Position numbers and translations under genes: made by a program. DNA of 13,505 nt from NCBI GenBank assembly GCA_903911165.1, contig CAIWCQ010000439.1, positions 1 to 13,505 on the forward strand, in the 5' to 3' direction. Source of the stretch: an uncultured Actinomycetes bacterium (GTDB taxonomy: Bacteria; Actinomycetota; Actinomycetes; Mycobacteriales; Mycobacteriaceae). Below, piece by piece: positions 3,598-7,203 of the stretch. The notes under the pieces were generated by a model that saw only the letters and a program-made list of their open reading frames with translations, was not told where the DNA came from and searched no databases. Position 1 is the stretch's first letter; each line of letters starts with the position of its first letter.

Positions 3598-3990
3598 GTG
3601 AGCGACATCCCCGCCGATCTGCGTTACACCGCCGAGCACGAGTGGGTGCAGCGCACCGGCGAGGACACGGTGCGGGTGGGCATCACCGACTTCGCCCAGG
3701 ATTCGCTGGGCGACGTGGTCTTCATCCAGCTTCCCGACGTCGGTACCGACCTCACCGCGGGGGAGTCGTTCGGTGAGGTCGAGTCCACCAAGAGCGTCTC
3801 GGACCTCTATGCGCCGCTGTCGGCGTCGGTGGTCGCGGTTAACGCCGAGTTGGAGGCCAAACCCCAGCTGGTCAACTCCGATCCCTACGGTCAGGGTTGG
3901 CTCTTGGAGTTGCGGGCGAGCGGCGATACCCTTGATGACGGGCTGGCGGGACTTCTCGAGGCAGACGCCTACCGGGACACCCTGGGCTGA
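3598..3990 (+). CDS. gcvH: Glycine cleavage system H protein
   Basis: Small lipoyl carrier that shuttles the aminomethyl group from the P protein (GcvP, encoded 3.2 kb downstream) to the T and L proteins in glycine cleavage. The 130-residue length is normal. The lipoylation site is Lys65 within [15 protein letters not shown], and the N-terminus RYTAEHEWV is typical of the family. The GTG start is supported by a purine-rich ACGAGGAG site at about 3587-3594, a few bases upstream. The stop codon lies inside a 17-bp tandem repeat, the first unit of which encodes the last residues (LG-stop). The gene precedes garA by 168 bases. Pairing gcvH with an FHA gene, MerR gene, DUF151 gene and MerR gene is a conserved actinobacterial order. 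Confidence 0.97.
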
Positions 3991-4040
3991 CTGACAACCT
4001 GGGCTGACTGACAACCTGGGCTGACTGACAACCTGGGCTG
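3981..4040 (+). repeat. 17-bp tandem repeat, about 3.5 copies, spanning the gcvH stop
   Basis: Unit CCTGGGCTGACTGACAA occurs perfectly at 3981-3997, 3998-4014 and 4015-4031, followed by nine bases of a fourth copy (4032-4040). The first unit includes the gcvH stop codon, so each copy repeats the TGA context. The identity of the copies implies recent slippage. The unit is not a multiple of three, but all extra copies lie after the stop and leave the protein unchanged. Confidence 0.96.
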
Positions 4041-4047
4041 GCAGTCT

Positions 4048-4082
4048 CGCCGGCCCGGAAACCGCCGGCCCGGAAACCGCCG
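4048..4082 (+). repeat. 15-bp tandem repeat, about 2.3 copies, upstream of garA
   Basis: Unit CGCCGGCCCGGAAAC at 4048-4062 and 4063-4077, with five further bases (4078-4082). It starts only seven bases after the 17-bp array ends but is unrelated to it in sequence. It ends just before a candidate -10 box at 4087, so it occupies the place of the -35/spacer region of a possible garA promoter. Confidence 0.93.
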
Positions 4083-4158: not shown

Positions 4159-4656
4159 GTGACCCAACAGGACCGACCAGCGGGAACTGGCGCGACCTCC
4201 GATGAGGTCACGGTGGAGACCACCTCGGTCTTTCGCGCGGATTTCCTCAGCGATCTCGACGCCGCGACCGGTGAGACCGCCGTGCCCGGATCGGGCGCGA
4301 TGTCCGGGGTCGAAGGCTTACCGGCGGGTGCGGCACTGCTGGTCGTCAAACGCGGCCCCAACGCCGGCTCCCGGTTTCTCCTCGACCAGCCGACAACCTC
4401 AGCGGGCCGGCATCCCGACTCTGAGATCTTTCTCGACGATGTGACCGTCAGCCGCCGCCATGCCGAGTTCCGTTCCGACGGCGGCAAGTTCCACGTCGTC
4501 GACGTCGGCAGCCTTAACGGCACCTACGTCAACCGTGAACCGGTCGACTCGGCTGCGCTGACCAACGGTGATGAAGTTCAGATCGGCAAGTTTCGGCTGG
4601 TATTTCTGACCGGTCCCAAGCCAGCCGAGGGCGATGGTGTTGCGCAGGCCCAATGA
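4159..4656 (+). CDS. garA: FHA-domain metabolic regulator GarA (OdhI orthologue)
   Basis: Cytosolic phosphorylation-controlled regulator. In mycobacteria unphosphorylated GarA binds and inhibits 2-oxoglutarate decarboxylase (KGD) and NAD-glutamate dehydrogenase and activates glutamate synthase; phosphorylation by PknB or PknG in the N-terminal tail switches this off. The 165-residue protein shows the phospho-acceptor motif VETTSVFRADFL with Thr21 and Thr22, a variable linker (about 31-50), then the FHA domain (about 55-150) with GRHP (83-86), SRRH (98-101) and NGTYVN (120-125), the phosphothreonine-binding loops. The numbering of the two threonines equals that of M. tuberculosis. GTG start with AGGAG at 4147-4151, seven bases upstream. 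The stop overlaps an ATG in a 20-bp repeat array leading into ftsR. Its place beside gcvH and upstream of gcvP suggests shared nitrogen/one-carbon control, which is inference. Confidence 0.97.
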   Translation: MTQQDRPAGTGATSDEVTVETTSVFRADFLSDLDAATGETAVPGSGAMSGVEGLPAGAALLVVKRGPNAGSRFLLDQPTTSAGRHPDSEIFLDDVTVSRRHAEFRSDGGKFHVVDVGSLNGTYVNREPVDSAALTNGDEVQIGKFRLVFLTGPKPAEGDGVAQAQ

Positions 4657-4696
4657 GCGCACCAGATACCCAGTGAGCGCCCCAGATACCCAGTGA
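4653..4696 (+). other. Two seven-codon minigenes linking garA to ftsR
   Basis: ATG at 4653 opens a frame encoding MSAPDTQ and stops at TGA 4674-4676. GTG at 4673 opens the same peptide and stops at TGA 4694-4696. Each start overlaps the preceding stop by four bases: garA TGA/ATG (ATGA at 4653), first minigene/second (GTGA at 4673), second/ftsR (GTGA at 4693). A ribosome finishing garA could reinitiate stepwise into ftsR. They are by-products of the 20-bp duplication of the ftsR start; whether they are translated cannot be told from sequence. Confidence 0.4.
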
Positions 4697-4712
4697 GCGC
4701 CCCAGATAGCCG
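4654..4712 (+). repeat. 20-bp tandem repeat, three copies, carrying the ftsR start
   Basis: Units at 4654-4673, 4674-4693 and 4694-4712 (the last diverged and one base short) share TGAGCGC, then A or C, CCAGATA. The unit is the sequence around the ftsR start codon and codons 2-5 (SAPD). Because 20 is not a multiple of three, the upstream copies are out of frame with ftsR and end at stop codons. Confidence 0.95.
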
Positions 4713-5484
4713 TGAGCCCGCCGGGATGTCGATCGGGGCAGTCTTGGATCTGCTCCGGCCGGACTTCCCGGATGTCACGATCTCCAAGATCCGCTTCCTC
4801 GAGGCCGAGGGGCTGGTGACACCTCAGCGCAGCCCGTCGGGTTACCGGCGGTTCACCGCCTACGACAGTGCCCGGCTGAGGTTCATCCTGACCGCCCAGC
4901 GTGACCAGTACCTGCCGCTGAAGGTCATCAAGGCCCAACTCGACTCCCAGCCCGACGGGGCATTGCCGGGGCGGGATTCGCTGTATCCGGTCCCGCGACT
5001 GGTGGGAGTGGACGACCCACGTCGACCGGCCGCGGATGCCGCCGGTGCGCCCATTGTTTCCCCGGGTGTTTCCCCAGGCGCGGCTGTTGCCGGCGGCACG
5101 GGGTCGCCGGTGCCCGTCCGACTCAGCCGCGAGGACCTTCGGGAGCGTTCGGGGGTCGGCGAGGAACTTCTCACCGCGTTACGGAAGGCCGGCGTCATCA
5201 CCACCGGACCGGGCGGGTTTTTCGACGAGCATTCGGTGGTGATCGCCCAGTGCGCTGCGGCACTGGCCGAGTACGGCGTGGAACCCCGGCACCTGCGAGC
5301 CTTCCGGTCGGCCGCCGACCGGCAGTCTGACCTGATTGCCCAGATCGCCGGCCCGGTCGGCAAGGCCGGCACCACCGGCGCCCGCGACCGTGCGGATGAC
5401 CTGGCCCGGGAGGTGGCGGCGCTGGCGATCAGCCTGCACACCTCGCTGATCAAGTCCGCCGTCCGCAACGTCCTGGACCGCTAA
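4693..5484 (+). CDS. ftsR: MerR-family transcriptional regulator FtsR (Rv1828 orthologue)
   Basis: DNA-binding regulator; the Corynebacterium orthologue FtsR activates ftsZ, so a role in cell division is likely. The 263-residue protein begins [21 protein letters not shown], matching Rv1828. It has a MerR winged-helix domain at about residues 12-85 ([33 protein letters not shown]), a variable Pro/Gly/Ala-rich linker (about 88-135) containing a repeated VSPG, and a conserved C-terminal domain (LSREDL..., [34 protein letters not shown]). No cysteines or metal-site motif were seen. GTG 4693 is chosen because MSAPDS is conserved; ATG at 4726 is an in-frame alternative. There is no ribosome binding site of its own, so translation probably depends on coupling from garA through the repeated start region. 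Confidence 0.95.
5056..5079 (+). repeat. 12-bp direct duplication in the ftsR linker
   Basis: GTTTCCCCGGGT (5056-5067) is followed directly by GTTTCCCCAGGC (5068-5079), 10 of 12 bases alike, encoding VSPGVSPG in the variable linker between DNA-binding and C-terminal domains. It is in frame and probably neutral. Confidence 0.7.
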
Positions 5485-6964: not shown

Positions 6965-7162
6965 GCATCGAACCTGTGCGGGAGAGTTCCGAGACAGCCA
7001 GTCGCGGACGCCGAAGGAGCAATACCTCTCCGTCAATCTCTCAGGCCCCAGGACCGCACCGGAACACGATGCCTCTGGAAAGCGGCGACCGTTTCACGGC
7101 CGCCCGCCGATGGGGAAAAGTGGCCCTGCGCTGCTGAATCTCTCAGGCACCCATGACAGAGG
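6965..7162 (+). ncRNA. Tandem glycine riboswitch (gcvT type) upstream of gcvP
   Basis: Two glycine aptamers in series. Aptamer 1: P1 formed by GTGCGG (6976-6981) and CCGCAC (7054-7059), with conserved core CGCCGAAGGAGCAA (7009-7022) and CTCTCAGG (7038-7045). Aptamer 2: P1 formed by CCTCTG (7072-7077) and CAGAGG (7157-7162), with core CGCCGATGGGG (7105-7115) and a second CTCTCAGG (7140-7147). The leader GCATCG (6965-6970) pairs perfectly with linker CGATGC (7067-7072), the P0 helix of the leader-linker kink-turn of complete glycine riboswitches. Glycine binding is expected to switch on gcvP. Small reading frames across this segment, such as one at 6872-7156, are not genes. Confidence 0.95.
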
Positions 7163-7203
7163 GGGAGGACGTCCGATCGTCACGTCCACCTCGAGGAGTG
7201 CCA
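7163..7203 (+). promoter_or_regulatory. Riboswitch expression platform and gcvP ribosome binding site
   Basis: A hairpin GGACGT (7167-7172)/ACGTCC (7182-7187), extendable by two G-C pairs past one mismatch, lies just before the ribosome binding site GAGGAG (7193-7198), five bases ahead of the GTG start at 7204. GAGG at 7165-7168, next to aptamer 2 P1, can alternatively pair with CCTC at 7189-7192. No T-run terminator is present, so control of translation is more likely than of termination. Inference from pairing. Confidence 0.45.

Follow-up and report, generated by a model that had tools for sequence, protein, structure and literature searches.

The window, by which we mean the whole stretch of DNA analysed (positions 1–13505 of contig C439 of assembly G000, which has 3.14 Mb in 524 contigs), carries garA followed by ftsR on the + strand. 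The garA product matched the NCBIfam model OdhI NF041660 with 222.3 bits (cut-off 200) and the ftsR product matched FtsR NF050798 with 260 bits (cut-off 150). Direct reading of the letters between the two genes revealed three copies of a 20-bp unit at 4649–4708, and the features of the junction are as follows.

4159–4656, + strand: garA/odhI, FHA-domain 2-oxoglutarate dehydrogenase inhibitor (ORF list; FHA domain), the upstream gene of the relay
4632–4640, + strand: best Shine-Dalgarno (SD)-like match for ATG4653, within garA (−6.0 kcal/mol, 12-nt gap)
4649–4668, + strand: 20-bp unit 1, unlike the other two units at two bases
4653–4676, + strand: minicistron 1, MSAPDTQ, starting on the garA stop (ATGA) and stopping on GTG4673
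4669–4688, + strand: 20-bp unit 2 (TRF, reading)
4673–4696, + strand: minicistron 2, MSAPDTQ, with a GTG start, stopping on ftsR GTG4693; scored as the bridge of the junction
4689–4708, + strand: 20-bp unit 3, containing the ftsR start (TRF, reading)
4693–5484, + strand: ftsR, MerR-family regulator of cell division, 263 aa, start GTG4693 (N-terminal coding signal)
4712–4717, + strand: GTGAGC near-repeat 19 nt past GTG4693, a possible slippage partner
4726–4728, + strand: alternative ftsR start Met12, judged unlikely

The garA stop TGA at 4654–4656 overlaps an ATG at 4653–4655 as ATGA. The frame opened by this ATG reads ATG AGC GCA CCA GAT ACC CAG TGA, and its stop at 4674–4676 overlaps GTG4673 as GTGA; the frame opened by GTG4673 reads GTG AGC GCC CCA GAT ACC CAG TGA, and its stop at 4694–4696 overlaps GTG4693, again as GTGA. 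Each of the three successive stop/start junctions is therefore at −4, within the spacing of coupled pairs (−4 to +3), and ftsR itself starts at +36 relative to garA. All 20 bp agree between units 2 and 3, and unit 1 departs from them at two bases; both differences are silent in minicistron 1 and the first is silent in garA too, and two bases are too few for a selection test on the minicistrons. TRF reported an array at 4649–4717 with a period of 20, 3.5 copies and a score of 110, its last half copy being the near-repeat GTGAGC at 4712, which L001 and L002, relatives with one copy of the unit, have too. When the window was resampled four times with an order-2 Markov model, once for each score threshold (50, 60, 80 and 100), no array with a period of 10–60 appeared. 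The sequence and TRF together bear out the earlier note, which had described a triplicated 20-bp start region passing from a garA-stop/ATG through two MSAPDTQ frames to GTG4693 by ATGA and GTGA overlaps. When a 16-base core of the unit was searched for with up to 3 mismatches, the 3.14-Mb assembly gave 21 matches and the reversed control 18; outside the garA-ftsR locus there were likewise 18, every one of them at 3 mismatches. As these other matches were at the reversed-control level, we concluded that the unit is local to garA-ftsR, and its being a dispersed repeat of G000 was rejected.

GTG4693 is the only start in the ftsR frame after the garA stop and before Met12, as judged from the ORF list and by reading. 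Among 58 distinct overlap-class relatives, codons 2–11 of ftsR varied mainly in the third position (entropy 0.21, 0.42 and 1.08), and codons 13–30, taken for comparison, gave 0.22, 0.05 and 0.98; an ATG is found 33 nt past the ftsR start in 75 of 76 overlap-class rows. A Corynebacterium glutamicum FtsR cut by 28 residues, so that it starts MSIG, is described as failing to complement (PMC6683498); the extension before the internal Met is 11 residues in the window FtsR and 28 in the C. glutamicum protein. A start at Met12 (4726) was judged unlikely from the third-position variation, the truncation result and the comparison of SD matches given below, and GTG4693, which had been proposed as the true start, was upheld by the first two of these.

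The best SD pairing for ftsR GTG4693 was −3.9 kcal/mol, 15 nt off, and the minicistron starts gave −1.9 kcal/mol at GTG4673 and −6.0 kcal/mol at ATG4653. All such energies were calculated with what we take to be the 16S tail. In the single-copy L001 and L002 the ftsR values were −8.6 and −9.1 kcal/mol, and ftsR in the window is without most of the SD match present in these relatives. Junctions at −1 had a median ftsR SD of −9.1 kcal/mol (n=54) and long-spacer relatives one of −2.7 kcal/mol (n=30). That ftsR has no ribosome binding site of its own, as had been claimed, is supported by these values, with the proviso that a weak SD is not rare, being found also in the long-spacer relatives and at two of the six other window starts tested (−2.5 and −3.6). 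As the long-spacer relatives are weak too, ftsR output need not be low where its SD match is. The fold of the junction RNA was not unusual (z 0.50 against 200 shuffles, 138 of which folded at least as well), and a special RNA structure at the junction was rejected. A search of the window, L175, L170 and L067 for known RNA families returned none at the junction, the glycine riboswitch alone reaching threshold.

Relatives were drawn from the best 80 of 266 protein matches, 71 of these 80 being entitled Mycobacterium or Mycolicibacterium, and from a search of G000 and 395 other genomes of one genus. In addition to the window, 169 loci were classified, comprising these best 80 of 266, 29 of the best from the genus search and 60 further rows; the junction table omits L259, which has a TTG start, and the tree omits L037. 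The resulting 169 rows, the window included, gave 144 distinct garA-ftsR junctions, a sample of the most similar relatives rather than a random one, with rows that are related and not independent. Since 93 of the 144 have a spacing of −4 to +3, close coupling of garA and ftsR is the usual state. We scored as a bridging minicistron any frame of at least 4 codons that starts near the garA stop and whose own stop has a spacing of −4 to +3 to the start of ftsR. Not counting the window, 48 junctions have a spacer of at least 12 nt; 33 of these were bridged in this way and 15 were without a bridge, leaving two other junctions and the window. The 20-bp array was found in the window only among the 144. 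On the tree the window grouped with L001 (identical to L083) and L002 with an SH-aLRT value of 100, and all three of these relatives have a single copy, a single start and a 1-nt overlap, TAGTG or TAATG. The comparison of copy number proposed beforehand thus gave one copy in the nearest kin and three in the window, and because the window alone carries the array we regard it as a recent local duplication. In L001 an in-frame TGA follows the garA stop TAG, and it is at that TGA that garA of the window ends. Two GTGAGC lie 19 nt from each other in L001, and in L002 an ATGAGC is followed by a GTGAGC; such pairs are a possible seed for slippage. L002 and L037 carry the title Bifidobacterium breve, yet both have a garA-ftsR of mycobacterial type and L002 groups with the window; they are probably mislabelled bins.

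The explanation that we favor, with moderate confidence, is that of a tolerated slippage duplication in which stepwise reinitiation would keep ftsR coupled to garA, probably less efficiently than before. A 20-bp duplication of the garA stop and ftsR start, now in three copies, would have arisen once this lineage had parted from its closest sequenced kin, and replication slippage would be the simplest route. Since the unit is 2 mod 3 and its NTG overlaps a TGA, each extra copy makes a seven-codon minicistron that ends on the next start; the tidiness of the relay follows from this arithmetic (20 = 2 mod 3, with an NTGA start) and is therefore no evidence of design or function. Ribosomes leaving garA would restart at 4653, then at 4673 and then at 4693, and ftsR would thereby remain coupled to garA though now 36 nt past the garA stop. 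In older studies coupling was best at −4 to +3, with a 3–10-fold loss by about +40 (PMC12548453). The SD-like match embedded in garA would now serve the first copy, with little left for ftsR; as the SD of ftsR is now weak, its output is probably below that of single-copy relatives, which is an expectation only. The array would be tolerated because coupling is kept.

A rather unlikely alternative is that the minicistrons play no part, GTG4693 being reached directly by ribosomes or 30S subunits from garA or initiation occurring there de novo. One study is described as finding coupling undiminished from −4 to +25, save for a peak at −4 (PMC12548453), so that minicistrons may not be needed, and in another coupling was partial over a 50-bp gap (PMC6728339); the ordinary fold of the junction RNA also fits this alternative. 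Direct arrival at GTG4693 would, however, have to contend with the weak SD there and with two NTGA stop/starts in the path of the ribosome. Returning to stepwise reinitiation, we regard as unlikely its extension to a rheostat, in which a selected number of units sets the FtsR:GarA ratio by passing a fixed fraction of ribosomes at each step. In E. coli, removal of the SD is reported to have lowered reinitiation by 60–90% in three of five pairs, to have been essential in one and without effect in one (PMC6728339); given such losses, output could fall with each step that has a poor SD. Between senX3 and regX3 the number of 77-bp copies varies from one to seven (PMC2453075), and bridged junctions recur in Mycobacterium. 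Against this, no variation in copy number was seen, no second strain of the species having been found, the relay results from the length of the unit, and bypassing of steps would blunt any control; we see no sign of copy number as an evolved control. An ftsR transcript of its own, possibly leaderless and beginning in or near the array, is improbable, even though cg1631(ftsR)-cg1633 is an annotated sub-operon in C. glutamicum (PMC6683498) and leaderless transcripts are described as common in mycobacteria (PMC4633059). An assembly artefact, the true genome having one or two units, is most improbable; the array is known from one contig of a 524-contig assembly, but at 60 bp it is short, the contig around it extends over at least 13.5 kb, and two private differences mark unit 1.

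Bridged junctions were conspicuous in the early set of the first 109 relatives and the window, in which 26 distinct junctions have spacers of at least 24 nt and 23 of these, the window among them, were bridged; the number expected in that set was 3.3 by shuffling or 5.3 from a Markov model, with maxima of 10 and 13 in 4000 trials. The 60 later loci brought ten more unbridged junctions, and bridging is therefore common but not a rule; as a rule it was rejected when the 23 of 26 became the 33 of 48 noted above with these loci and the limit of 12 nt. The latter proportion hints that keeping a bridge may be favored rather than merely tolerated. On the tree the bridged class needs 8 changes, gains and losses not being told apart, and at least 5 of them are forced by starred branches; L018, which has a cassette of the kind described below, and L015, which is empty, are sisters with a support of 100. 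Other duplications occur at this junction. In L020 and L054, which are close on the tree but not sisters, a 13-bp duplication has copied GGAGGGTAGTGA together with its SD and the ftsR start region, giving a spacing of +12; L217 has a 33-bp unit in 2.2 copies, and L246 a 15-bp unit.

Many of the garA-ftsR bridges in relatives consist of the sequence of a dispersed, often tandem repeat of 30–33 bp with the core ATGAGCGCTYGCGCGAAGAG, which lies at gene junctions of many mycobacteria, forms minicistron relays, and is found at garA-ftsR itself in several relatives. With up to 1 mismatch, GATGAGCGCTYGCGCGAAGAG was present in 76 of 118 genomes, the reversed control giving 0 in all, and the exact 20-base core occurred 742 times in 65 of the 118. 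An ATGA followed 30–33 bp further on in 404 of the 742, tandem copies counted. Among the 150 of these 404 places that were listed, a hand count gave 115 at 32 bp, 22 at 33, 11 at 30 and 2 at 31; as 30 or 33 bp continue one frame, 33 of the 150 make no relay between units. Of 30 cassette arrays at 30 loci, 16 started at −4 from an upstream ORF, 16 ended at −4 to a downstream ORF (the other 14 being without a downstream gene at −4) and 10 did both. Among 74 ATGAG sites taken from these loci as controls, the corresponding numbers were 14, 4 and 1 (Fisher for both ends, 1e-5). The arrays are not all independent, since by eye the same junction recurs in different genomes (L161, L173 and L184; L166 and L167). 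The median SD at cassette ends was −6.3 (n=23), and that of long ftsR junctions, many of which have a cassette, was the −2.7 given above. The window unit resembles this cassette in having tandem units and short frames with NTGA at both ends. It differs in being local, whereas the cassette is multi-copy; the core ATGAGCGCTYGCGCGAAGAG had no match in G000 at up to 1 mismatch, and by eye only RTGAGCGC is common to the two, so the window unit falls outside this family. An open-access literature search found no report of the 20-bp garA-ftsR array or of the 32-bp cassette, and a text search with one 16-base piece of the cassette core found no paper.

Among described systems, the window unit is most readily set beside MIRUs, which likewise have tandem units on a start codon and an ORF with −4 coupling to the gene that follows (PMC12548453), and whose units of 77 and 53 bp (PMC2453075, PMC4213456) are 2 mod 3, as is the 20 of the window. 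Compared by description, MIRUs are dispersed in many places and longer, whereas the window unit is 20 bp, is found only at garA-ftsR, its other matches being at the level of the reversed control, and is made of the first codons of ftsR itself. The MIRUs of the senX3-regX3 spacer are reported from M. leprae and the M. tuberculosis complex only (PMC4213456), and the available text of PMC9094748 mentions neither MIRUs nor coupling. A review describes MIRUs as repeats of many mycobacteria (PMC12548453), so the 32-bp cassette could count as one; it may be undescribed, or a kind of MIRU whose sequence was not printed. Termination-reinitiation pairs (ATGA/TGATG) share the stop/start geometry of the window (PMC6728339, PMC12548453) but normally have one overlap, and the window has three in series. 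The Start Associated Sequences of cluster K mycobacteriophages are, as here, short repeats tied to translation starts, but these are dispersed 13-bp repeats resembling ribosome binding sites and are described without a minicistron relay (PMC3203893).

Start-codon cassettes of like logic recur in the genus, and the observation of the window array is correct and neat. A broader reading, which we judge less likely than not, is that MIRUs (53 and 77 bp), the 32-bp cassette and the window unit belong to one mycobacterial class of start-codon cassettes, mostly 2 mod 3 and with NTGA ends, which could insert and multiply at gene starts because ribosomes are handed on; within this reading the number of units may tune FtsR against GarA. 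The constant adjacency of garA and ftsR has led to the suggestion that the two are functionally linked (PMC6683498). Were the broader reading true, the window would present a start-codon cassette at its birth, made from a gene's own first codons, and the 32-bp cassette would be an apparently undescribed kind present in over half of the 118 sampled genomes. The junction also yields a simple rule, that an operon should stay coupled through a tandem duplication at one of its gene starts if the unit is 2 mod 3 with NTGA ends, and this may explain the tolerance of MIRU-like repeats inside operons. As one-copy, three-copy and cassette-bearing junctions exist in nature, serial termination-reinitiation could be measured on them without invented sequences.

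The window has four tandem arrays in 13.5 kb compared with 1.4 expected, a borderline excess (P 0.051). The other three, all reported by TRF, are a 17-bp repeat of 3.8 copies across the gcvH stop codon (3976–4040), a 15-bp repeat of 2.3 copies between gcvH and garA (4048–4082) and an 18-bp in-frame repeat of 3.2 copies in a SecA-family gene (2518–2574). That the array stems from a general abundance of tandem repeats in the genome was rejected, the density in the G000 sample (10.2 per 100 kb) being ordinary for the genus when compared with 5.0, 5.0, 5.5, 11.0 and 17.0 in samples of five other genomes. Two adjoining glycine riboswitch aptamers at 6969–7169 precede a gene listed from 7153, which is presumably gcvP, and the second of the two matches extends to 7169, beyond the ATG at 7153.
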